A stretch of DNA of 64,000 nt. Origin: an uncultured beta proteobacterium. Its GTDB lineage: Bacteria; Pseudomonadota; Gammaproteobacteria; Burkholderiales; SG8-39. Position numbers and translations under genes: made by a program. The stretch is from positions 49,323 to 113,322 of the forward strand of contig CADEDU010000013.1 of NCBI GenBank assembly GCA_902826155.1, written 5' to 3'. Positions 33,701 through 51,329 of the stretch are shown piece by piece; the first letter of the stretch is position 1; each line of letters opens with the position of its first letter. The notes below the pieces were generated by a model. The model was given only the letters and a program-made list of their open reading frames with translations. It did not search any database and was not told where the DNA came from.

Positions 33701-33816
33701 GCGGGAGGTTGCTCGCGCAATGGGTTCCATGGGGTCAAGCGTGGACCGCGCGTCATCGTGCGCGCCCGGCGCAGTCGAAATTGCGCGGGGCGATCAATCG
33801 GAGTAGCCTCGCTTGC

Positions 33817-35882
<2,066 letters not shown>

Positions 35883-36388: not shown

Positions 36389-37684
36389 TCACGGCTTCAG
36401 ATAGCCCGACCAGCGCGGCAACGCCGTCACCAGATCGGGCACCAGTACCATCAGGAACAGCAGCGCCATCAAGACACCGATCAGCGCCCAGCTCTCGCGG
36501 ATGATTTCGCGCAGCGGAATCCTGGCAAGCGCGGCGAGCACGAACAGCAGCAGGCCATAGGGCGGCGTCACCAGTCCGATCGTGACATTGAAGATGATCA
36601 CGACGCCGAAGAAGACCGGGTCGATCTTCAGCGCCAGCACGCTCGGAATGAGCACCGGTACCAGTACGAGCAGCATCGTGGTCGCGTCGATCAGGCATCC
36701 GAGCACCAGGAACAGCACGTTGACCGTGAGCAGGAAACCGAGCGCCGACAAGCCCAGGCCGCCGATCCACGCCGCAAGCGTCTTGTCGAGCTGCTCAGCG
36801 GTCACCGCGTAGTTGATCGCGAACGCGCCGCAGATCATCAACAGAATCACCGACGTCTGCCGCGCGGTTTCGACGAACACGGCGAGCAGCTTCGTCGCGC
36901 TCAGCTCGCGATAGATCGCCCCCGCCAGTACCAGCGCGTAGAGCGCGGCTACCGCCGCCGATTCCGTGGGCGTGAACTTGCCCGAGTAGATGCCACCCAG
37001 CAGCACCACCGGCATCCCGAGCGGCGCCAGCGCGCGCAGGACGAGGCGCCTGCGCTCCATCTTGCCAACCGCGTGTTCAACGGGGAAGCGACGCCGCACG
37101 GCGGTAAGGTAGACCACGATCATCATCGCCGCCGCCATCAGCAGACCCGGAATCACGCCGGCCAGAAACAGTGCGGCCACCGACACGTTGGCGATCAACG
37201 CGTACAGGATCATCGGGATCGACGGCGGGATCATCGGTCCGAGCGTGGCCGAGGCGGCGACGATGGCCGCAGCGAATCCGCGCGGATAGCCCGCCTGCGT
37301 CATCGCGCGAATGGTGACCAGGCCCGGACCCGCAGCGTCGGCCACTGCGCTGCCGCTCATGCTCGCGAACAGCACGCTCACGACCACGTCGACCTGCGCC
37401 AGCCCGCCGCGGATACCTCCGACCAGGGCATGGCAAGCCGCGAACAATCGATCCGAGATCGAGCCCGCGTTCATCAGATTCGCCGCGAGCATGAACATCG
37501 GGATCGCGAGCAGCACGTAGTTGTTGGCGAGCGTGTTGAGGATCTGATCGGCGAGCAGTCCGACATCGCGCCCGGCGGCATACAGGTACGCGAGGCTCGC
37601 GACGATCATCGCCAGCGCGATCGGCACGCGCACGAGCGACAGTGCGATGAACACCGCCAGCAACAGCAGGAACGCGCCGCTCAT
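36389..37684 (-). CDS. dctM: TRAP transporter large permease, DctM-like
   Basis: A 431-residue inner-membrane protein with about 12 hydrophobic segments. It carries the DctM sequence pattern, including GSISDRLFAACHALVGGIRGGLAQ, SGSAVADAAGPGLVTIRAM and IPPSIPMILYA. The protein is the ion-coupled permease that moves the ligand released by DctP. The gene is the last of the three-gene TRAP operon; a 9-base gap follows dctQ. Confidence 0.93.
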   Translation of the reverse strand: MSGAFLLLLAVFIALSLVRVPIALAMIVASLAYLYAAGRDVGLLADQILNTLANNYVLLAIPMFMLAANLMNAGSISDRLFAACHALVGGIRGGLAQVDVVVSVLFASMSGSAVADAAGPGLVTIRAMTQAGYPRGFAAAIVAASATLGPMIPPSIPMILYALIANVSVAALFLAGVIPGLLMAAAMMIVVYLTAVRRRFPVEHAVGKMERRRLVLRALAPLGMPVVLLGGIYSGKFTPTESAAVAALYALVLAGAIYRELSATKLLAVFVETARQTSVILLMICGAFAINYAVTAEQLDKTLAAWIGGLGLSALGFLLTVNVLFLVLGCLIDATTMLLVLVPVLIPSVLALKIDPVFFGVVIIFNVTIGLVTPPYGLLLFVLAALARIPLREIIRESWALIGVLMALLFLMVLVPDLVTALPRWSGYLKP

Positions 37685-37693
37685 GGCGGGCGC

Positions 37694-38191
37694 CTAGAGG
37701 CGGTCCTGCCAGCCGGCGCGCAGCAGCGTGGCCGCGCGGGCAAGCAGGCGCAGCGCCACGGCCACGACAAATACCACGAAGCAGAAGTACACGAAATCGA
37801 GACGCCACTGCAGCGCGGCGGTGCGCTCGCGCCACAGGAACACGATGAAGTCCGCAATCTTGGGTGCGGCGGCCAGCAGCACCAAGCCTGCGAACCCGCA
37901 TCCAAGTACGCCAACCCAGCGTCGTGCCGCGCTCGGCAGCGTCGAATCCAGCAATTCGAACGCAACGTGATCGGCTAGCCGTACCGCGAACGCGCCGGTG
38001 ATGAATACGCACCACAGAAACAGCACGACCGCCAGCTCATCGATCCACACCAGCGGCGCGCCGAACAGATAGCGGCGTACGACCCCGAGGAGTATCGCGA
38101 CGAGGACACCGGCGAGCAACAGCGCGGCCACCCATTCGCCACCACGCTGCAGCCAGAGAAACGCAGAACGCCGGTCCGCGCTAGCGGACAC
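37694..38191 (-). CDS. dctQ: TRAP transporter small permease, DctQ-like
   Basis: A 165-residue membrane protein with four transmembrane helices and the DctQ core RYLFGAPLVWIDELAVVLFLW. It pairs with the DctM protein. The start is GTG 38191, inside the end of the dctP gene (11-base overlap). DctP-DctQ-DctM together import an organic anion with Na+ or H+ gradient. Confidence 0.9.
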   Translation of the reverse strand: MSASADRRSAFLWLQRGGEWVAALLLAGVLVAILLGVVRRYLFGAPLVWIDELAVVLFLWCVFITGAFAVRLADHVAFELLDSTLPSAARRWVGVLGCGFAGLVLLAAAPKIADFIVFLWRERTAALQWRLDFVYFCFVVFVVAVALRLLARAATLLRAGWQDRL

Positions 38192-39173
38192 GCATCACCT
38201 CTTCCATCATCTTGCGATTCCACGGCTTGGCCGCTTCGGCGTTGGCGTACACCTTGTCGGCATTGGCGCGAAAGCCGGCCAGGTCTGGTCGGGCCACGGT
38301 GAGTCCTTTGGCCGCCAGGCCATCGATAACGGTCTTCTCGTCGTTCAGCCGCTGGTCGTCGTTCCACTTCGTCGAGGCAACCGCGGCGCTCTGTACGGCC
38401 TTTTTCTGGTCGGCCGAGAGCTTGTCCCAGAACGGCTTGGCGATCGAGTAGAACACCGGCTGCACCAGGTGGGAGGTGATCACTAGCTGCTTGGTGACCT
38501 CATGGAACTTCGCGGCGTTCATGATCGTCGGTGGATTCTCCTGGCCGTCGATCGTGCCGGTTTGCAGTGCGAGGTAGACCTCGGGCATCGCCATCGGCGT
38601 GGGCGTGACGCCGATCGATTGACCGAGGAGCAGCCAGTCGGGGCCACCGGGCATGCGCATCTTCACGCCAGCGAGGTCGGTGGGACCGCTCACGTTGCGC
38701 GCCGCGCGCAAGTTCACCTGCCGCGTGCCCAGATACGTTGGCGCGAGGATCACGATGCCCATCTTCGCTGCGACCGTGTCGGCGTAGGTTTTGCCGATGG
38801 TTCCGGTGAACGTCTTGTGCGCGTGGTCGTAGTCGCGAAACAGGTAGGCGCGATTGAAGAAACCGAACTCCGGGATCTGCTGCGCGACCTCGAACGTGGT
38901 CATCGTGCTCATCTCGAGATTGCCGCGCTGCAGGGCGGGGACTTCGGTCCCCTGACGAAACAGCTGACTGGCCGGAAACAGCTGCACGTCGATCGCCGGG
39001 GCCGCCTTTTCGACGTCGGCCTTGAACTGCTGCAGCGACCGCGACAGAAAATCCGACGGCGGCGCCGCCGTTGAGAAGCGCAGCACGGTCTTGGTTTGCG
39101 CGATCGCCGCGGACGAAGCGAGCGTGAGCGCGGCAAGGACGATTGCGGAGGTGACGCGACGATTCAATGCCAT
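38181..39173 (-). CDS. dctP: TRAP transporter substrate-binding protein, DctP-like
   Basis: A 330-residue periplasmic protein with a signal peptide (ending SSAAIAQ near residue 25). The mature domain holds TVLRFSTAAPPSDFLSRSLQQF and QRGNLEMSTMTTFEVAQQIPE, and the Arg of LGTRQVNLR, which in DctP proteins usually pairs with a carboxylate of the ligand. AAAGGA is well placed before the ATG at 39173. A carboxylic acid ligand is likely. Confidence 0.92.
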   Translation of the reverse strand: MALNRRVTSAIVLAALTLASSAAIAQTKTVLRFSTAAPPSDFLSRSLQQFKADVEKAAPAIDVQLFPASQLFRQGTEVPALQRGNLEMSTMTTFEVAQQIPEFGFFNRAYLFRDYDHAHKTFTGTIGKTYADTVAAKMGIVILAPTYLGTRQVNLRAARNVSGPTDLAGVKMRMPGGPDWLLLGQSIGVTPTPMAMPEVYLALQTGTIDGQENPPTIMNAAKFHEVTKQLVITSHLVQPVFYSIAKPFWDKLSADQKKAVQSAAVASTKWNDDQRLNDEKTVIDGLAAKGLTVARPDLAGFRANADKVYANAEAAKPWNRKMMEEVMRVR

Positions 39174-39261
39174 GGGGCTCATCCTTTCGTTCTGCAGTGC
39201 GAAGGTGCATCAAGACTTGAATTCAGCGTATCACCAACTCCGTGTCGCGCATGACGCGCGC

Positions 39262-41909: not shown

Positions 41910-43841
41910 CTACTGGTAGCGCACGCCGACGAACACGTTCGAGCCCGGTGTCGCGAAGTTGGTCGCCAACTCGTACTCCTTGTCGAACACGTTGTTCCAG
42001 CGCGCGAAGATCCGCCACTCGCGATTGAAGCGGTAGCTCGCTACGAGATTCAGCAGGGCGTAGCCATCCAATGGCCGGGTGTTGTTGAGATCGTCGAAGC
42101 GTCGGCCTGAGGCCACGACCTCCGAGGAGAATGACCACGACCCGACTTCGTAGTCGAGCGAGGCGCTGCCGTAGCGCTTGGCTCGCCGCGGCAGCACGCG
42201 GCCGGAGGCACGATCTTTCGGATCGGCGAGATCGAACGTGCCGCGCACCGACCAGTTGCTCGTCAGCCGCGCCTGTGCAGACATCGAGTAACCCGCGAGT
42301 AGTGCCTGGTTCACGTTGACCGGGCAGCCGAATGGTCGGCCCGCCAGCGGGCACACGCCGGTGAACGCGATGAGATCCTCCACGCGATTGCGATAGTAGA
42401 CGGCACTACCAGAGATCCTCTGGCCGTCGTAGTGCACACCGCCTTCGGCATTGCGCGCCTTCTCGGGCACCAGTGTCGGATTGTCGAAGCTCGGAAAGTA
42501 GAGATCGTTGAAGGTCGGCGCCCGGAAGGCCGTGCCGCCGCTCAGCGTGGCGCGCCAGCCTCCGCCGAACCGATAGCCATACGCGAGCGAGCCAGTCGTC
42601 CTGTTGCCGAACTGATTCGAATCGTCGTTGCGCACGCTGCCCTGGAACAGATGCGCGCCCGGCGCCCACTGCAGCACGCCGACGCCGGAGTTGGTGTCGC
42701 GCTCGTTGGTCGAGAACAGCGTGTTCGAGATGACTCGCTCTTCGCGCCGCTCCGCTGCCAGTTGGAGCCTGAGCCCGCCGAAGCGAAGATCGTTCTGCCA
42801 GGCGTATTGGCGCTGCTTGGTGTCGAACCGGCTGGTCGAGAAGGCCGATCTGTTCTCGTTGAGGTCGGCGGTCTCGCCCAGACGCAGGCGGGTGGTCCAA
42901 TTGGGCAGGAGTTGGTGCGCGCTGTGAATCGCGCCGGTGCGTACAGTGGTCTCTGCGCGATCGTCGAAATTCGCGCTCGTGTCGTACTGCGAAACGATCC
43001 GACTCTCGAGGAACTGGACGCCGATCTCGTGGCCGCGCGCCGGCGTGAAGCCGAACTGGCCGCTCGCGTGTGCGCGCCGATAGCCGTCGCGGTCCGGATT
43101 GAAGCCGAATGCGGACGGATTGCGGATGGCGTTGAAGCCGCGGCTGTCTTCCCTGCCGACCTGCACGCTGTAGCGCGCGATGTCGGTGCCGCCCGATACG
43201 CCCGCACCGATGCGCCAGGTGTCGTAGCTGCCGTAGCCGCCTTCGACGTTGAATCGCGTTGGCCCTTCGCCCTTGCGCGTGAAGATCTGCACCACGCCGC
43301 CGATCGCATCGGCGCCGTACAGGCTCGATGCCGGTCCGCGCAGCACCTCGATGCGCTCGATCTGTTCGATCGGTATGGCCTGCCAGCTCGCTGCGCCCGC
43401 GGTGGAGGAGCCGACGCGCTGGCCGTCGATCAGCAGCACCACCTGCGTGCCGTTCGAGCCACGCATGAACACGTTGGTGGTCGAACCAGGGCCGCCGGTG
43501 GTGGAAATCTCGATGCCGCGTTGGCGCCGCAGCACATCGACCAGGTTCGACTGGCCCGACGTTGCAAGCTCCTCGCGCGTGATGATGCTCACGTCGGCCA
43601 CGCTTTCGGCGACCGGCGTCGGCGTGCGACTGCCGGTGACGACGACCTCCGGCAGCGTGGCCCCGGATGCTTGCTGTTGAGCGAGCGCGGAAGGCGTGAA
43701 TCCAACCGACAGGAACGCTGCAGGTATGAATACGGCAGCGTACGCGGCTGCGAGATTGGGTGCGCGCGTGAACGCGAGTTTGGGCGCGTGATCAGACGAC
43801 GGGCAACGCGGCCGACGCCGCGGCAAGGCAGATGTGGACAT
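41910..43841 (-). CDS. btuB: BtuB-like TonB-dependent vitamin B12 receptor
   Basis: A 643-residue outer-membrane receptor. Signal peptide (about residues 26-54) ends TPSALAQ. The TonB box-like LPEVVVTGSRTPTPVAES, the plug VLRRQRGIEISTTGG, NVFMRGSNGTQVVLLIDGQRVG and RGPASSLYGADAIGG are present, and the C-terminus ends VFVGVRYQ. Control by a cobalamin riboswitch upstream supports cobalamin as substrate. Start at 43841 follows AAGGGGAG. Energised by TonB-ExbBD; cobQ lies downstream. Confidence 0.93.
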   Translation of the reverse strand: MSTSALPRRRPRCPSSDHAPKLAFTRAPNLAAAYAAVFIPAAFLSVGFTPSALAQQQASGATLPEVVVTGSRTPTPVAESVADVSIITREELATSGQSNLVDVLRRQRGIEISTTGGPGSTTNVFMRGSNGTQVVLLIDGQRVGSSTAGAASWQAIPIEQIERIEVLRGPASSLYGADAIGGVVQIFTRKGEGPTRFNVEGGYGSYDTWRIGAGVSGGTDIARYSVQVGREDSRGFNAIRNPSAFGFNPDRDGYRRAHASGQFGFTPARGHEIGVQFLESRIVSQYDTSANFDDRAETTVRTGAIHSAHQLLPNWTTRLRLGETADLNENRSAFSTSRFDTKQRQYAWQNDLRFGGLRLQLAAERREERVISNTLFSTNERDTNSGVGVLQWAPGAHLFQGSVRNDDSNQFGNRTTGSLAYGYRFGGGWRATLSGGTAFRAPTFNDLYFPSFDNPTLVPEKARNAEGGVHYDGQRISGSAVYYRNRVEDLIAFTGVCPLAGRPFGCPVNVNQALLAGYSMSAQARLTSNWSVRGTFDLADPKDRASGRVLPRRAKRYGSASLDYEVGSWSFSSEVVASGRRFDDLNNTRPLDGYALLNLVASYRFNREWRIFARWNNVFDKEYELATNFATPGSNVFVGVRYQ

Positions 43842-44515
43842 GTGAGGTGACTCCCCTTTGTTCGAGGCCAGGGAGTGCATCCCCGCACTGCCGTGGCCAG
43901 CAAGACATGTGGGAGCTCAACGAAGCGCTGACAGCGGCTTGTGGCGCCGCACACGTCTTTAACCAGCGGAAGACGGCGAGCGAGCCCAACTGCAGCACCG
44001 TGCGCAGCGACCCCGCAGCGCTCCCGGTCAGCATCGCCGGCCGGTCTCCGGGCTTGCGAGCCCGACGCGAAACCATTGCGGTTCGCGCCGGAGTGTTGCG
44101 CACGGCCTTCCCAAGGTTTTCGCCTCAGTGGCCCGTGGCGTGCGCCGTTTGTGCTCGCCTACCGTTGCGGGGGCAGCGCAGGCGTTGACGCACGAATCAA
44201 TACCGTCGTACGTCGCACCTGCTTCACGTTTCACCCGATGCGCGCTCGGATCGCGCACCAGGCACCGTCGATGACGGCGGAATCTTAGCACCCGTGGAAG
44301 GCGAAGCCGGACGGAGACCGATTTGCGCGTTTCGCTGTTGGTCTGCGGGTGCTGGCTTCATTCGATTCGATATACCGTCCGTAATCCAGACGTAATTTGA
44401 TCCCTTTCTGCGAACCGCGTGTGATCAAGGCGGGATATTCACGGGAAACTGCAGGAGAAAGGCACGCGATCCGGATCAATAAATCTCGCCATAATTATCG
44501 TCATAATTCCAGTCT
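43842..44515. other. Intergenic region, btuB leader and yjjJ upstream
   Basis: A 674-base region between divergent genes. The btuB half carries the cobalamin riboswitch (44020-44268). The right part, 44340-44515, is less GC-rich than the flanks and contains two direct repeats CATAATT (44490-44496 and 44502-44508) just before the YjjJ-like start codon. No further gene is supported. Confidence 0.55.
44020..44268 (-). promoter_or_regulatory. Cobalamin (B12) riboswitch
   Basis: Read 5' to 3' on the minus strand the conserved blocks appear in order: GGTGCCTGGTGC near the upstream end, GTGAAACGTGAAGCAGGTGC, GCTGCCCCCGCAACGGT (44161-44177), GCCACTGAGG (44123-44132), GGGAAGGC, and finally AGCCCGGAGACCGGCC, the B12-box end (44039-44056). 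This matches AdoCbl-class riboswitches. It precedes btuB by about 180 nt, so cobalamin should repress btuB and cobQ. Confidence 0.93.
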
Positions 44516-45895
44516 ATGCGCTCTCCGAACCAAGCCGCCCGCCAGCAGATCGCCGCCGCCCTACGCCGTGGCCCGATCAGTGCACCCGCGCTCGCCGAGG
44601 TGCTGGTGATTTCACCGCGCACTGTCCTGCGATTGATCGGTGAACTCGGTGAACGCGTCGTATCGATGGGCGCCGCGGGGCGACGGCGCTATGCCTTGGC
44701 GCGTCCGCTGCGTGGCGATGCACGGCCGATCCCGGTGTTTGCTGTCGATCGACGGGGAAGCGTGCATGACGCCGGCACGATCCAACTTGTCGATCCAGGC
44801 GGCAGTACGTTCGATCTCGCGACCCTGGGCTGGCCCGTCGACACCTCCGCCCGCGACGGCTGGTGGCAGGGCCTGCCCTATCCGCTCTACGACATGCGCC
44901 CGCAAGGATTCATTGGTCGGGCGTTCGCGCGCCTCGAACATCGCGCACTGGAGGTGGCGAGCGATCCGCGTGCCTGGGGCGATGACGACATCGCCTATGT
45001 GCTGAGTCGGCGCAGCGCTGACGTACCGGGAAGCTTGATTGTGGGAGAGCCGGCGCTGCGCCTTCATCAGGCGCAGCGCGCGCTCGCCGCGGCGCCGATC
45101 AAACCTGCCGCGTTGACCGATGCCTATCCTGCGTTGGCGGAGGCGGCCATCGGGCACGCGGTGCCAGGGAGCAGCGCGGCTGGGGAGTTCCCGAAGTTCA
45201 CCGCGACGCGCACGATGACCGCGGCTCGAACGCCCCATGTGATCGTGAAGTTTTCCGGACAAGCTGGCGGCGATGCAACCCAACGCTGGTCCGACCTGGC
45301 GGTGTGCGAGCACCTCGCGCTCGAGCAGATCGATGAGGTGGGCGGTTTGCAGGCGGCCCGCAGTCGCATCATCCAGGCGCGGCAGCGCACCTTCTTCGAG
45401 TCCGAGCGTTTCGATCGTCATGGGCTGTTCGGCCGCTCGCCGGTGGTCAGCCTGGAGGCGATCAACGGCCATCTGCTGGGGCTGGCCAGCGGTGACTGGC
45501 GCGATCACGCCGCCGCGCTGCTGCGGCTCAAGCTGATCGACGAATCCACCGCGCGATCGCTCGTGCTGCTGTGGTGGTACGGGCGGCTGATCGCCAACAG
45601 CGACATGCACCTTGGCAACCTGAGCCTGATTCCTGCCGATGGCGCGCTGCGCCTGGCGCCGGTCTACGACATGCTGCCGATGGGCTATGCGCCGCTGCCC
45701 GGCGGCGAGGTAACGCGCGCGCCATGGTCGTTCGAGCTGCCGCTGCCGCGCGAGGCGCGTGTGTGGACGCAAGCGTGTACCGCAGCGATCGCGTTCTGGC
45801 GCACGGCGGCCACCGACGCTCGGATCTCATCGCGCTTTCGATCGCTGTGCAATCAGAACGCTGGTGAGTTGGAGCGCTGCGCGGAGAGGTTGTAG
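44516..45895 (+). CDS. yjjJ: YjjJ-type HipA family kinase with N-terminal HTH
   Basis: A 459-residue protein of the YjjJ kind: the N-terminal 60 residues form a winged-helix-like segment (ALRRGPISAPALAEVLVISPRTVLRLI), followed by the HipA kinase fold. Kinase motifs are HVIVKFSG (ATP lysine, about 243), FESERFDRHG (about 300), NSDMHLGNLSL (catalytic Asn/Asp, about 362) and YDMLPM (about 385). Unlike hipBA loci there is no separate HipB; DNA binding is probably fused in. HipA kinases phosphorylate proteins such as GltX; YjjJ targets are poorly known. Upstream CATAATT repeats may serve autoregulation. No strong ribosome-binding site was found. Confidence 0.88.
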   Translation: MRSPNQAARQQIAAALRRGPISAPALAEVLVISPRTVLRLIGELGERVVSMGAAGRRRYALARPLRGDARPIPVFAVDRRGSVHDAGTIQLVDPGGSTFDLATLGWPVDTSARDGWWQGLPYPLYDMRPQGFIGRAFARLEHRALEVASDPRAWGDDDIAYVLSRRSADVPGSLIVGEPALRLHQAQRALAAAPIKPAALTDAYPALAEAAIGHAVPGSSAAGEFPKFTATRTMTAARTPHVIVKFSGQAGGDATQRWSDLAVCEHLALEQIDEVGGLQAARSRIIQARQRTFFESERFDRHGLFGRSPVVSLEAINGHLLGLASGDWRDHAAALLRLKLIDESTARSLVLLWWYGRLIANSDMHLGNLSLIPADGALRLAPVYDMLPMGYAPLPGGEVTRAPWSFELPLPREARVWTQACTAAIAFWRTAATDARISSRFRSLCNQNAGELERCAERL

Positions 45896-45994: not shown

Positions 45995-46804
45995 ATGTCC
46001 AGCTTCGTGCGCCTTCTCCTCACCACCGCCCTCGCCACGCTCGTCAGCGCGTGTCGCATCGACGACTACTTCCTCTACTACCCGCAGCCGTTGAGCGAGC
46101 AGGCCGCCGCCGCGATCGCCAAGCGGCACGCGAATGCCGAGGAGATCGTGATCGAGCCGCAGCAGGGCGTGCGGCTGCACGGCTGGCTGATCGGACATCG
46201 CGACGCGGGCACGGCGCGCAAGCCGTTGGTGGTGTACTACAGCGGCAACGCTGAGGAAGTGTCGTGGCTGTTGGAGGAAACGAAGCGCTTTCCGTCGCAC
46301 GCGTTTCTGCTGATGAACTATCGCGGCTATGGGCGCAGTACCGGCAAGCCGCACGAGTCGACGCTCTTCGCCGATGCGCTCGCGGTGTTCGATGCGGTCG
46401 CGCGGCGTCCGGAGCTCGATCGGGATCGCGTGCTGCTCTGGGCACGAAGCCTCGGCACCGGCGTCGCGGTGCATGTGGCCACGGAGCGGCCCGTCGCCGG
46501 TCTGGTGCTGGTGTCACCCTACGACAGCATCACGGCGCTGGCGACGCTGCATCAGCCGCTGCTCAAGGGCCTGCTCACTCAACACTTCGATTCGATCGGC
46601 AAGGCGCCGCGGGTGCGGGTGCCGATGACTGCGCTCGCCGCCATACGTGACACGCTGATTCCCATCGCGCATTCCGATCGCCTGGTCAAGGCGTGGGGCG
46701 GATCGGCGCGCCTCGTGTCGCTGCCGCAAGGCGAACATCAGTCGCTGCATCGCTATCCTGAATACTGGCAGGCGATTGCCGAGGCGTTCAGACGCAAGGA
46801 TTGA
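45995..46804 (+). CDS. Alpha/beta hydrolase lipoprotein
   Basis: A 269-residue hydrolase with a lipoprotein signal (LATLVSAC, Cys20). The alpha/beta hydrolase core has NYRGYGRSTGKPHES near residue 108 and the nucleophile elbow WARSLGTG (Ser152), a slightly atypical G/A-x-S-x-G as found in ABHD17-like depalmitoylase/BAAT relatives. The acid Asp is in AIRDTLIPIAHSDRLV and His in GEHQSLHRYPEY. Location in the inner or outer membrane periplasmic leaflet is likely. It stands alone between yjjJ and the thiolase-like operon; substrate unknown. Confidence 0.87.
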   Translation: MSSFVRLLLTTALATLVSACRIDDYFLYYPQPLSEQAAAAIAKRHANAEEIVIEPQQGVRLHGWLIGHRDAGTARKPLVVYYSGNAEEVSWLLEETKRFPSHAFLLMNYRGYGRSTGKPHESTLFADALAVFDAVARRPELDRDRVLLWARSLGTGVAVHVATERPVAGLVLVSPYDSITALATLHQPLLKGLLTQHFDSIGKAPRVRVPMTALAAIRDTLIPIAHSDRLVKAWGGSARLVSLPQGEHQSLHRYPEYWQAIAEAFRRKD

Positions 46805-46988
46805 TCGTCGCGGTCGAACTTCGGGCTCAAGCGCATGTGGCATGGAGGCGCGCGCGCTACGAATCGCCCGGCCCGCAACTCGCGAAGCAAAACGCGTGGC
46901 TCCATGAATCTCAGCGGTTAAACTTGCCGGCCATGACGTCCACCGATTTGTCGACCGTTCGCGCCGCGGCACGCGCGATCCCAGAGCA

Positions 46989-48158
46989 GTGAAACGCAAC
47001 CGCCTGCGCTACGACGGCATCGTCGTCGCCGTACCGGTGACGGTTCCGTACGTGCGCTATTCGATCCGCTCCGCGCACTGGTTTCTCGGCCGCGCGCTGG
47101 CCGAGCTGATCAAGCGTTCGGGAATCGCCAAGCGCGAAATCGACGGGCTGTGCGTGTCGAGTTTCATGCTCGCGCCAGACACCGCGATCGGCCTTACCCA
47201 GCACCTCGGGGTGAGTCCGCGCTGGCTCGATTTCCTGCCGATCGGCGGGGCGAGCGGCGTGGTGGCGTTGCGTCGCGCCGCGCGCGCGGTGCAGGCGGGC
47301 GATGCCGACGTCGTGGCCTGCATCGCCGGCGATGCCAATCAGACCGAATCGTTTCGCCTGAACGTCTCCAACTTCAGCGTGTTCTCGCGCGACGCGTCGT
47401 ATCCGTACGGCTCGGGTGGTCCGAATGCGAGCTTCGCGTTTCTCACCGCGCACTACATGCGCAAGTTCGGCGCGACGGCGGAAGACTTCGGCCGCATCTG
47501 TGTCGACCAGCGCACCAACGCGCTTTCGTTCCCGCACGCGCTCATGAAAAAGCCGCTCACGATGGACGAGTACTTGAACGCGCGACCGATCGCCGATCCG
47601 ATCCGCCTGTTCGACTGCGTCATGCCTTGTGCGGGCGGCGATGCGTTCCTGGTGCTCCGCGAGGAGCACGCGCGCGATCTGGGTCTGCCGTTCGCGCGGG
47701 TGCTGGGCACGATCGAGCGGCACAACGCGTTTCCCGACGATCCGATCCAGATGCGCGGCGGTTGGGCGATGGATGTCGACGATCTCTACGCGCAGGCCGG
47801 CGTGCGCGCGAGCGATATCGATTTCTTCCAGCCGTACGACGACTATCCGGTGATCGTCGCGATGCAGATCGAGGATCTGGGGTTTTGCGCCAAGGGCGAG
47901 GCGCCGGCGTTCCTGCGTGCCAATACGATGACCTGTGACGGCACGTTTCCGCTCAACACCAACGGCGGACAGCTCTCGGTCGGCCAGGCTGGCGCGGCCG
48001 GAGGGTTTCTCGGACTGGTCGAGGCGATTCGCCAGCTCACCGGCGAGCAGCTCGGTGCGAAGGTGCCCGATGCGAAGGTCGGCATGGTCAGCGGCTTCGG
48101 CATGATCAACTTCGATCGCGGCCTGGCAAGCGGCGCGGCGATCCTCGCACGCGCCTGA
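46989..48158 (+). CDS. Thiolase-fold protein lacking thiolase catalytic residues
   Basis: A 389-residue protein of the thiolase superfamily (SCP-x/lipid transfer thiolase-like group) with a GTG start. The positions of the three catalytic residues are changed: the nucleophile Cys of CASG is Gly (IGGASG, Gly87), the His of GHP is Gln (SVGQAG, Gln333), and the second Cys of CxGxG is Ser (VSGFG, Ser368). Such thiolase-like proteins paired with DUF35 proteins act as retro-aldolases on acyl-CoA side chains (Ltp2 type) rather than thiolases; whether that holds here is inference. A 19-codon ORF (46934-46992) overlaps the start by four bases. The next gene is the DUF35-SDR fusion. Confidence 0.88.
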   Translation: MKRNRLRYDGIVVAVPVTVPYVRYSIRSAHWFLGRALAELIKRSGIAKREIDGLCVSSFMLAPDTAIGLTQHLGVSPRWLDFLPIGGASGVVALRRAARAVQAGDADVVACIAGDANQTESFRLNVSNFSVFSRDASYPYGSGGPNASFAFLTAHYMRKFGATAEDFGRICVDQRTNALSFPHALMKKPLTMDEYLNARPIADPIRLFDCVMPCAGGDAFLVLREEHARDLGLPFARVLGTIERHNAFPDDPIQMRGGWAMDVDDLYAQAGVRASDIDFFQPYDDYPVIVAMQIEDLGFCAKGEAPAFLRANTMTCDGTFPLNTNGGQLSVGQAGAAGGFLGLVEAIRQLTGEQLGAKVPDAKVGMVSGFGMINFDRGLASGAAILARA

Positions 48159-48199
48159 TACTCACGACGAATCGCGCACCGCAGCCAATCGACACCCGC

Positions 48200-49444
48200 A
48201 TGGTCAAACCGCTTACCGCACCGAGGCGCAAGAATCCGATCCTGCGCACGCGCCTGCCGACGTTGCCGCCGGGTGCGCGCAGTCGTCCAGCGCTGGGCAT
48301 GACGGCCGCGGCGGCCGAGGGGCGGTTTGCGCTGCAAACGTGCAAGGACTGCGGCACGGTGCAATACCCGGCGCGCGAAATGTGCGTGAGCTGTTTGTCC
48401 GACAAACTGCTGTGGCGCGACCAGGATGGTGCGGGCGAGCTGATCTCCGAGACGGTCGTGCATCACAGCAACAACTTGTTCTTTCTCGAACGCCTGCCGT
48501 GGCGGCTGGGCATGGTCAAGCTCGATTGCGGTCCGAGCGTGGTCGTGCATCTGCATGCAGACGTGCCGGCGGCGCCCGCTCGCGTGCGCGTGGCTGCGTG
48601 TCTCGATCGCGCGAGCCAGGCGGTGCTGGTGGCATTTCCTCCGGAGGACACGCCCAACATGGCCGATGACCGTCAACTGCGTGAGATGACGTGCGATCCG
48701 AAGTTCCGCAAGGTGCTGGTCACCGACGGCAAGACCGCGGTGGGACAGGCGCTGGTGCAAGCGCTGGCCAAGGCGGGCGCGGGCCTGATCTGGGTGGGTT
48801 ACGCCGAGCCGTGGAAGAAGTATCCCGGGTTGGAAGCCCTAAAGCAGTTGCCGCAGGTGACGCTGGTGCCGCTCGATGTCACCAACGGCCAGTCGGTGAA
48901 GGAACTCGCCGGTGAACTGGGAGCGCGCGTCGACATCCTCGTCAACAACGCCGAAGTTCATCGCGCCTACGGCATCGCGGCGCGTTACGGTACCGACGTC
49001 GCGCGCGCCGAGATGGACGTGAACTACTTCGGCCTGCTGCGGTTGGCGCAGGAATTCGGGCCGGTGATGCGCGCGCGTGGTGCCGATGGACAGAACAGCG
49101 CGGTGGCGTGGGTGAACCTGCTGTCGATCTATGCGCTCTCGAATTTTCCCGCGCACGGAACGTTCTCGGCATCGAAGGCCGCGGCGTACTCGCTGTCGCA
49201 ATGTCTGCGCGCCGAGATGAAACCTTCAGGCGTGCGTGTGGTGAACGTGTTCCCCGGACCGATCGACGACGAGTGGAATCAGATGCTGCTGCCGCCGAAG
49301 GTGGCGCCGGGCGCGTTGGCCGGTGCGATCGTCAAGGCGCTGCAGGGCGGCGTGGAAGACGTCTATCCGGGCGACGTCGCACAGGAATGGCTGGTGCGCT
49401 GGCGCGAGAACCCCAAGGGCCTGGAACGCGAGCTGTCGGAATGA
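48200..49444 (+). CDS. DUF35 OB-fold zinc-ribbon protein fused to a degenerate SDR domain
   Basis: A 414-residue fusion. Residues 42-70 form a rubredoxin-like zinc ribbon (Cys48, 51, 62, 65 in CKDCGT and CVSC), followed to about 150 by the DUF35 OB fold that binds acyl-CoA. From about 170 an SDR domain begins (KVLVTDGKTAVGQAL, NNAE at 249). Its catalytic Tyr is replaced by Phe: Ser309 and the usual Lys326 remain but position 322 is Phe (GTFSASKAA). Hence the SDR part may bind but not reduce substrate. Such fusions are not familiar to me. It directly follows the thiolase-like protein, its likely partner, and precedes a cyclase. Confidence 0.87.
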   Translation: MVKPLTAPRRKNPILRTRLPTLPPGARSRPALGMTAAAAEGRFALQTCKDCGTVQYPAREMCVSCLSDKLLWRDQDGAGELISETVVHHSNNLFFLERLPWRLGMVKLDCGPSVVVHLHADVPAAPARVRVAACLDRASQAVLVAFPPEDTPNMADDRQLREMTCDPKFRKVLVTDGKTAVGQALVQALAKAGAGLIWVGYAEPWKKYPGLEALKQLPQVTLVPLDVTNGQSVKELAGELGARVDILVNNAEVHRAYGIAARYGTDVARAEMDVNYFGLLRLAQEFGPVMRARGADGQNSAVAWVNLLSIYALSNFPAHGTFSASKAAAYSLSQCLRAEMKPSGVRVVNVFPGPIDDEWNQMLLPPKVAPGALAGAIVKALQGGVEDVYPGDVAQEWLVRWRENPKGLERELSE

Positions 49445-49463
49445 GCAGGCAACGGGAGCCGCG

Positions 49464-50249
49464 ATGAGCATGAACACCCTGATGCAACTGGCGAGCGAAC
49501 TGGCGAGCGGACAGATCCGCGTGGTCGATCTCACGCAGACACTGTCGCCGGATTTCCCGCAGATCACCCTGCCGCCCGAAGCCGGTCAGTGCTGGCCGTT
49601 TCGCATCGAGGAGATCTCGCGCTACGACGATCGCGGCGGCGGCTGGTACTGGAACAATTTCTCCTGCGGCGAGCACACCGGTACGCACTTCGATGCGCCG
49701 ATCCACTGGGTGTCGGGGCGCAACCTGCCCAACAACGCCACCGACACGATCCCGGTGCAGAACTTCGTGGGGCCGGCGTGTGTGCTCGATTGCTCGCGCG
49801 AGTCGGCCGCGAATGCCGATTTCCTGCTGACCAAACAATGGGTGCTCGACTGGGAGGCGCGGCACGGTCGCATTCCGGCGCGCGCCTGGGTGCTGATGCG
49901 CACCGATTGGTCCAAGCGCACCGACGCCGAGGCGTTCCAGAATTACGACGAGGAAGGGCAGCACACGCCAGGCCCCGATGCGCAAGTCGTGCAGTTTCTG
50001 GTGCAGGAACGCGATGTCGCGGGCTTCGGCACCGAGTCGATCGGCACCGACGCAGGGCAGGCGATGCATCTGAACCCGCCGTTTCCGTGCCACTACTTCA
50101 TGCACGGTGCGGGGCGCTATGGCCTGCAATGCCTCACCAATCTCGATCAGCTCCCGCCCACCGGTGCGGTGATCTTCGCCGCGCCGCTCAAGATCAAGCA
50201 GGGCAGCGGCAGTCCGTTGCGCGTACTGGCGCTGGTGCCGGGGCGCTAG
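49464..50249 (+). CDS. Cyclase/kynurenine-formamidase-family hydrolase
   Basis: A 261-residue metal hydrolase. The motif HTGTHFDAPIHW (His71, His75, Asp77, His81) is the family hallmark of metal-dependent formamidases and polyketide-cyclase-like enzymes. The ATG at 49464 has GGGAG upstream at good spacing, and it lies 19 bases from the DUF35-SDR stop, so the thiolase-like, DUF35-SDR and cyclase genes form one operon. Amide, ester or ring-closing substrates are possible; identity unknown. Confidence 0.88.
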   Translation: MSMNTLMQLASELASGQIRVVDLTQTLSPDFPQITLPPEAGQCWPFRIEEISRYDDRGGGWYWNNFSCGEHTGTHFDAPIHWVSGRNLPNNATDTIPVQNFVGPACVLDCSRESAANADFLLTKQWVLDWEARHGRIPARAWVLMRTDWSKRTDAEAFQNYDEEGQHTPGPDAQVVQFLVQERDVAGFGTESIGTDAGQAMHLNPPFPCHYFMHGAGRYGLQCLTNLDQLPPTGAVIFAAPLKIKQGSGSPLRVLALVPGR

Positions 50250-50261
50250 AGAGCGCGATGG

Positions 50262-51329
50262 TCAGAAGATCCGGTTGAACCAGAGCAGCGAGAGCAGCCC
50301 TGAAAGTGTCGCCAGGAGTGCGGCAGCCGCAGCAAACAGCGCGGTGATTTCGGTTTCGCGTTTCTCGAACGCGAACTTGGTGTTGAGCGACTGGTAGATT
50401 TTCTTCAGGTCGGCGGCGTTGCCGGCGAACAGATACTCGCCGCGCGTGGTGTTGGCGATCTGCTTGAGCGATTCTTCATCGAGGCGCACGCGGAACGACC
50501 AGCCCTCGAACTGCAGCGTCGTACCCTTCGGGGTGCCGATGCCAACGGTGTAGACCTTCACGCCGCGCTCAGCCGCCATCTTCGCGGCCTTCATCGGATC
50601 GGGACCAGCGGTGTTGTGGCCATCGGAAAGGAGCACGATCGCGGCGCTCTCGAACGAACCCGGCGGCACCGGCTTGACCTCTTCCTTCTTCTCGGCGAAG
50701 CGCTGCGCGAACGGCGTGCCTTTGAGCGCGGCATCGCGTCCGCCACCAAACTGCAATTCGCCCAGGTCGATGCCGGCGTTGGGGAACAGCGTCGCCAGTG
50801 ACAGCACGATGCTGCTGCCGATCGCGGTGCCACGCTGTAGCTGAAACCGGTCGATCGCCGCGAGCACATCGTCGCGATTGGTGGTGGGTGCCTGCGCCAC
50901 GGCCGCTGTGCCGGCGAACGAGACGATGCCGATTTTGGTCGACTTGGGCTGTTCGTTCACGAACGCCTTTGCCGCCGTCTGCGCCGCCGCGAGCCGGTTC
51001 GGTTCGACGTCGGTGGCGCGCATGCTGCCCGAAACGTCCATCGCCAGAATGACGGTCTGGTTCTGCACCGGAAGTGTGACCACCGCTGCCGGCCGCGACA
51101 TAGCACCGATCATCGCCACCAGCGCGAGCAGGAACAAGGTCGGTGGAATCGCGCGACGCAGCGTCGTGCCGACGCCGCCCGCCGGCGCCATGAGCGCGAG
51201 ATTGGCGAACTGCATTGCCGCCTTGCGCTTGCGCCGTTGCAGCCAGAGATACAGCGCGATCAGCAGCGGCAGCGCGGCGAGCAGCCACAGGAACTCCACC
51301 CATTGGAACGTCAGTGGCAGCTTGGTCAT
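50262..51329 (-). CDS. VWA-domain membrane protein, BatA-like
   Basis: A 355-residue protein with an N-terminal membrane segment (about 14-30) and a second near 62-77, a VWA domain whose MIDAS motif is MDVSGSMRATD (Asp98 on), and a C-terminal membrane anchor (ITALFAAAAALLATLSGLLSLLWF). It follows the DUF58 gene on the same strand, the arrangement of Bat/aerotolerance operons. The plus-strand gene at 54757 is a close paralog. Confidence 0.9.
   Translation of the reverse strand: MTKLPLTFQWVEFLWLLAALPLLIALYLWLQRRKRKAAMQFANLALMAPAGGVGTTLRRAIPPTLFLLALVAMIGAMSRPAAVVTLPVQNQTVILAMDVSGSMRATDVEPNRLAAAQTAAKAFVNEQPKSTKIGIVSFAGTAAVAQAPTTNRDDVLAAIDRFQLQRGTAIGSSIVLSLATLFPNAGIDLGELQFGGGRDAALKGTPFAQRFAEKKEEVKPVPPGSFESAAIVLLSDGHNTAGPDPMKAAKMAAERGVKVYTVGIGTPKGTTLQFEGWSFRVRLDEESLKQIANTTRGEYLFAGNAADLKKIYQSLNTKFAFEKRETEITALFAAAAALLATLSGLLSLLWFNRIF

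Follow-up and report, generated by a model that had tools for sequence, protein, structure and literature searches.

A predicted acyl-CoA retro-aldolase feeding an isatin hydrolase homologue in the iadG-iadH-iadI trio of auxin degradation

How is the acetate side chain removed from the oxidised ring when bacteria degrade auxin (indole-3-acetic acid, IAA)? In the literature that we searched, this step of the iad pathway has been assigned from annotation only. The question is raised by three adjoining open reading frames (ORFs) on the forward strand of a 64,000-nucleotide stretch of DNA from an uncultured beta proteobacterium (contig CADEDU010000013.1, positions 49,323 to 113,322), here called the window. 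A preliminary description of the window had placed at 46989-50249 an operon for a thiolase-fold protein, a fusion of DUF35 and short-chain dehydrogenase/reductase (SDR) domains, and a cyclase, and same-strand ORFs and Pfam matches bear this out. The three genes are homologues of iadG, iadH and iadI from the known bacterial iad locus and, as genes, are not new. What is new is a reading of their chemistry, in which a putative variant of the DUF35-dependent aldolases, with a YDDY motif and an SDR-fused partner, would feed an isatin hydrolase. Specifically, we propose, with a probability of about 0.77, that the trio is a core for side-chain removal and ring opening in which IadG and the DUF35 part of IadH act as a retro-aldolase, IadI opens isatin, and the SDR domain of IadH is not a dehydrogenase.

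The window proteins are 64% (IadG), 54% (IadH) and 62% (IadI) identical to the iad-locus proteins of Roseibium (locus L003), and window IadG is up to 75% identical to proteins of genome loci. Gene order was compared across 84 loci, namely the window, three loci on plasmids and the 80 top-ranking of 551 relatives on genome contigs; genes were called by codon usage, as calling by ORF length was misled by antisense ORFs in DNA of high guanine-cytosine content, some loci are cut by contig ends, and the IadH match in one of them (L036) is a fragment. iadG and iadH are adjacent in 83 of the 84, the exception (L035) stopping just past iadG, and iadH and iadI in 78. The IadF ligase is encoded directly upstream in 56/84 loci, IadD (at least 40% identity) occurs in 59/84 and IadJ (at least 45%) in 54/84; these three counts come from direct BLAST, the 'IadH' family label having taken in IadF by chaining. 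In Variovorax sp. DXTD-1 (L075) there are matches to C-D-E-F-G-H-I-J in that order. On Sulfitobacter and Roseibium plasmids the order thiolase-SDR-cyclase stands beside genes for MarR, a PDR/VanB reductase, Rieske alpha and beta subunits and a coenzyme A (CoA) ligase, a layout that matches the iad auxin-degradation locus (PMC9613470, PMC10374108, PMC12633357). The same order follows a CoA ligase gene, without Rieske genes, in Shinella.

Genetic work in V. paradoxus, reported in a preprint (PMC12633357), found that deleting iadG, iadH or iadI each significantly lowers anthranilate. On the basis of annotation, the preprint treats IadG as a ketothiolase and IadH as an alcohol dehydrogenase, and it infers that dioxindole-3-acetate is turned into its CoA ester by IadF. 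If this ester is the product of IadF, and if IadI starts at isatin, then the step between them has to yield isatin together with a CoA ester of two carbons; with a tertiary beta-hydroxyacyl-CoA as substrate, such a step would be a retro-aldol cleavage with no redox change. We envisage that, in a source organism whose substrate is presumably auxin, IadG together with the DUF35 half of IadH would act on dioxindole-3-acetyl-CoA: Tyr283 of IadG would take the proton of the 3-hydroxyl, the C3-CH2 bond would break, and Asp285, helped by Gln328 and Gln333, would protonate the acetyl-CoA enolate, giving isatin and acetyl-CoA without any need for a redox step. IadI, as a Mn-dependent isatin hydrolase, would then convert isatin to isatinate on the way to anthranilate, and the SDR domain of IadH would have a structural or docking role and no dehydrogenase function. 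One compound, C10H9NO4, results whichever of F, G, H and I is lost (PMC12633357), which fits joint action of G and H, and the residues of IadG, its DUF35 partner and the loss of SDR motifs from IadH appear consistent with a retro-aldol step.

In IadG, Pfam finds Thiolase_C_1 (110 bits), and both alignments and a fold search give as its best solved structural relative CtSal (9myr), a DUF35-dependent aldolase. The preliminary description had read Gly87, Gln333 and Ser368 in place of the Cys, His and Cys of thiolases, and correctly so: they align with CtSal Gly89, Gln352 and Ser387 (numbered from PMC12329534 and by counting along its alignment). Once aligned, all 84 IadG rows are missing the nucleophilic Cys and the catalytic His, with Cys at neither position 87 nor 88 (Gly87 and Ala88 in the window) and Gln333 where the catalytic His would stand; Gly87, Gln328 and Gln333 are invariant, and position 368 is Ser in 76 rows. 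More telling, and missed earlier, is Asp285, which lies with Tyr283 in a Y283-D-D285-Y-P motif kept in 84/84 rows. This Asp occupies the position at which SCP2 thiolases and Sal carry their catalytic Cys, the Y283-D-D285-Y of IadG aligning to Y302-D-C304-Y of CtSal. Neither Cys304, the second catalytic residue known for Sal, nor Tyr344, that of Ltp2, is kept, all 84 rows having Asp285 and Gln333. As Sal and Ltp2 themselves already differ at the second residue, IadG is perhaps best regarded as a variant of the Sal/Ltp2-type aldolases and filed as neither.

Residues, fold search and tree support a predicted Ltp2-like pair, thiolase-fold protein plus DUF35 partner, that would cleave C-C bonds of acyl-CoAs; several long branches join in the tree, which was thus counted as support only. 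The suggestion of an acyl-CoA C-C complex made in the preliminary description therefore holds on the side of cleavage, although such a complex is not 'undescribed' as far as its genes, iadGHI, are concerned, and there is no support for condensation, the linked genes that were identified being catabolic. Ketothiolase chemistry was rejected for IadG, in which neither the Cys nor the His is present, as was acyl transfer of the PhlC or BbsB type, for which IadG lacks the same two residues and whose structures also rank below Sal, a point that would be weak alone (of 49 matched places, 30 were used as thiolase-like controls). Achromobacter pulmonis encodes another thiolase-fold protein with YDDYP (L114:8276-9756), which shares 37% identity with IadG; the genes around it, read by eye, are a CoA ligase and a transporter ahead of it and, after it, a short protein whose CxxC...CxxC zinc ribbon looks like that of DUF35, and the group is perhaps another aldolase operon.

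The partner, IadH, combines zf-ChsH2, OB_ChsH2_C and adh_short domains in one 414-residue chain, as the profile search confirms. Its zinc cysteines (Cys48, 51, 62 and 65) are present in 83/83 rows, with the spacing C-x2-C-x10-C-x2-C in the window protein, and among solved structures its DUF35 part is related to the DUF35 protein of an archaeal thiolase/HMG-CoA synthase complex (6esq, E 5.2e-6) and to that of ChsH2 in complex with Ltp2 (6ok1, E 2.9e-5). From this we infer that IadG pairs with the DUF35 part of IadH in a complex.

The fusion to an SDR domain had been recognised from the start; what had escaped notice is that this domain has lost the usual SDR catalytic motifs. Window IadH has TDGKTAVG where TGxxxGxG is expected, and Phe322, with Lys326, at YxxxK. 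Across 81 IadH rows (two of the 83 are gapped in these columns), TGxxxG occurs in none and its first Gly is Asp in 79 and Gly in none, while the Tyr position of YxxxK is Trp in 34, Phe in 27, Tyr in 16, Val in two and Thr in two. The Lys is kept in 45 rows, and Tyr and Lys together in six. In the IadH of the Variovorax locus L075, from kin of the species studied in the preprint, Phe replaces the Tyr and the loop reads TDGKTETG. Controls were taken from the same ten genomes, where the nearest SDR profile has 33 matches, of which 30 were used, ten of them IadH and 20 stand-alone SDRs; in contrast to IadH, Tyr and Lys are kept in 20/20 of the latter, and the first Gly of the loop in 14 of the 15 with letters there. 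In the SDR IadJ, too, pattern matching finds YxxxK kept in 53/54 loci. The residues predict that the SDR domain of IadH is no longer a working dehydrogenase, and an active dehydrogenase was set aside because of the loss of TGxxxG and of the Tyr-Lys pair. The domain nevertheless probably does something, with a structural or docking role, because it has not been lost and its conservation comes close to that of the DUF35 part (mean frequency of the commonest residue, 0.69 versus 0.71). The structure model of IadH is mediocre (predicted local distance difference test score, pLDDT, 73), and all 50 fold matches listed are SDRs; the model was not used for any inference on the DUF35 part.

The third enzyme had been called a metal hydrolase, and its metal ligands are indeed kept, but its homology to isatin hydrolase had been missed. 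IadI matches Cyclase PF04199 (135.9 bits) and isatin hydrolase A (5nnb, E 1.1e-113). The Mn ligands of LaIHA are His69, His73 and Asp75, and its relay consists of His79, Asp193 and His207 (PMC6117287); the equivalents in window IadI are His71, His75, Asp77, His81, Asp196 and His210, each present in 82-83 of 83 rows. A GLQC motif lies at 220-223, with the Gln and Cys in 80/83 rows, and of the WxW motif W61 is found in 75/83 and W63 in 83/83. By its sequence, window IadI is a homologue of isatin hydrolase, and this suggests that the cleavage yields isatin. Isatin hydrolysis has been assayed for LaIHA and RsIHA (PMC6117287), and the iad-locus IadI of Roseibium aggregatum differs from crystallised LaIHA at only 10 of 257 positions (about 96% identity, counted on the alignment), so that an assayed isatin hydrolase is, within 4%, the product of an iad-locus iadI. 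Among the matches listed in the PMC literature, no linking of 'isatin hydrolase' with 'auxin' or 'iad' was found.

Several observations weigh against this proposal. Sampling the best 80 relatives makes full conservation partly a matter of closeness, and as a match to the DUF35 part of IadH the archaeal thiolase complex outranks ChsH2. Sal C304S and C304H are dead, and an Asp at that position would be untried chemistry. IadC, IadD, IadE and IadF were not found within the 64 kb window (E 1e-10), where IadJ has one 31% match at 2421. In the preprint it is C8H7NO2, the formula of dioxindole, and not isatin that accumulates without iadI (PMC12633357), which calls for an off-pathway reduction of isatin or else makes dioxindole a true intermediate. 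Within the SDR domain, six rows keep Tyr and Lys, the catalytic Ser (Ser309) is kept in 79/81 rows, and residue 322 is aromatic in 77/81, so that the pocket may retain some function. Finally, in 5u4s, the nearest SDR of solved structure, the alignment puts Leu at the Tyr position, yet the title of that entry describes it as NADP-bound, so loss of the Tyr alone does not prove the domain dead.

That iadC, D, E and F were not found in the window speaks for a view in which, in the source organism, the trio would act on another 3-hydroxy-oxindole or a related acyl-CoA and on no auxin derivative, the alternative that survives best and one that we regard as unlikely. Such a view could also draw on loci in which the trio keeps other company: a gene for a molybdenum hydroxylase large subunit lies directly before it in two (L046:15-1304 and L049:7493-9799, by Pfam, neither locus having a Rieske IadD at 40% identity or more) and likewise, by gene family, in L050, and an Asp/Glu/hydantoin racemase family gene does so in three (L010:1527-2306, L051:9174-9965 and L083:7621-8400). 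These variants hint at alternative ways of forming the substrate. The identities of IadG and IadI to the Roseibium iad proteins and the sameness of the listed active-site residues nevertheless speak for an auxin derivative in the window as well.

A second alternative accepts the retro-aldol step and makes the SDR domain an active isatin reductase of unusual mechanism, with dioxindole on the pathway. Dioxindole or its formula has been found in vivo (PMC9613470, PMC12633357), and Ser309, the aromatic residue 322 and the Tyr-less 5u4s can all be claimed for this view; but in 79/81 rows Asp has taken the place of the first Gly in the nucleotide loop, and isatin hydrolase acts on isatin, so that the reduction would need undoing, and we consider this very unlikely. 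As for the preprint's own view, that a ketothiolase IadG and an alcohol dehydrogenase IadH act together with IadF to take off the side chain by reduction, giving C8H7NO2, the build-up of that compound without iadI (PMC12633357) and the record annotations as thiolase and SDR families suit it, but the missing Cys and His of IadG and the eroded motifs of IadH, set beside the intact control SDRs, render it highly improbable.

Returning to the retro-aldolase proposal, it is tempting to extend it and to see in IadG, with its Tyr-Asp pair (YDDY), a third kind of catalysis among thiolase-fold aldolases, and in the SDR domain of IadH a docking module that passes reactive isatin to isatin hydrolase within one metabolon, but this extension is doubtful and is offered tentatively. 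In the open PMC literature searched we found no aldolase proposal for iadG, although subscription papers lay outside that scope and one could exist. If the proposal is correct, two required iad genes would have to be reassigned, to a retro-aldolase and its pseudo-dehydrogenase partner, the crystallised isatin hydrolases would be tied to their pathway, and a non-steroid branch would be added to the DUF35-dependent aldolases.

Table 1. Coordinates, in window numbering, of the trio and of the parts discussed.
Feature	Position	Strand	Remarks
iadG homologue, thiolase-fold, predicted acyl-CoA retro-aldolase	46989..48158	+	389 aa, GTG start; Thiolase_C_1
Y283-D284-D285-Y286-P287 codons, predicted catalytic motif	47835..47849	+	84/84 IadG rows
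iadH homologue, zinc-ribbon/OB (DUF35) + SDR fusion	48200..49444	+	414 aa; three Pfam domains, single chain
IadH DUF35 part, predicted IadG partner	48305..48589	+	Pfam ranges 36-70, 72-130
IadH degenerate SDR domain, residues 171-360, predicted non-dehydrogenase	48710..49279	+	motif loss
iadI homologue, isatin hydrolase of PF04199 cyclase family	49464..50249	+	261 aa; 5nnb match

In the ORF list the third frame opens with a GTG at 49323; its start was set at the first ATG that fits the homologues (Table 1). On the 5' side the trio is preceded by an alpha/beta hydrolase gene and a HipA-family YjjJ gene (44516-45895, plus strand; 464 bits against an NCBIfam cut-off of 401); on the 3' side, on the opposite strand, lie genes that we take to be a MoxR/vWA-type set. 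A scan of 46700-50400 found terminators at chance level and a single promoter-like site, on the opposite strand. Farther off, a cobalamin riboswitch (44022-44284, minus strand; 81.8 bits) lies directly upstream of a TonB-dependent receptor gene (41910-43880) whose top NCBIfam match is a B12 receptor, at 440 bits and under the cut-off of 599.7, and a thiamine pyrophosphate (TPP) riboswitch (33814-33914, plus strand; 56.2 bits, gathering threshold 54.3) lies ahead of thiC. The ThiC protein shares 88% identity with one from a Betaproteobacteria metagenome-assembled genome and 85-86% with proteins assigned to Burkholderiales, in keeping with a source organism that most likely belongs, uncultured, to that group. 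The minus-strand region 36389-39182 contains a TRAP large permease gene (36389-37684) and a gene (38181-39182) whose product shares 31% identity with a TRAP binding protein encoded close to the iad locus of Sulfitobacter; with at best 38% and 31% identity, these two genes were rejected as iad-linked.

Compared with the iad locus of Variovorax and Bradyrhizobium, the window has the same three proteins in identical order and differs in that iadCDEF were not found in it and in that the published IadG and IadH assignments are unlike those proposed here. Its IadI shares with isatin hydrolase A (LaIHA 5nnb, RsIHA 5nmp) the metal and proton-relay residues, WxW and GLQC, the difference being that activity has been assayed for those two enzymes whereas the window copy is known by sequence. 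The SDR domain of IadH and its nearest solved relative, 5u4s from Burkholderia cenocepacia, are alike in missing the Tyr, but the glycine loop is still present in 5u4s, whose structure was determined with NADP, where IadH has Asp for the first Gly. With the steroid aldolase Ltp2-ChsH2(DUF35) (6ok1), the predicted IadG-IadH pair has in common the fold, the Tyr base and a Cys4 DUF35 partner; Ltp2 produces a ketone by cleaving a tertiary beta-hydroxyacyl-CoA, a reaction of the kind proposed for IadG, but has YDHF in place of YDDY, and Gln333 of IadG stands at the place of the acid Tyr344. The bile acid aldolase Sal-Shy(DUF35) (9myr) likewise has a thiolase fold without the nucleophilic Cys, a Tyr base, two Gln (Gln347 and Gln352, at the positions of IadG Gln328 and Gln333) and a DUF35 partner on a separate chain. 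It differs from the pair proposed here in having Cys304 where IadG has Asp285, in a DUF35 fused to MaoC instead of to an SDR domain, and in a Cys3His zinc site in place of the C-x2-C-x10-C-x2-C ribbon of IadH, and the substrate of IadG would be an indole derivative.

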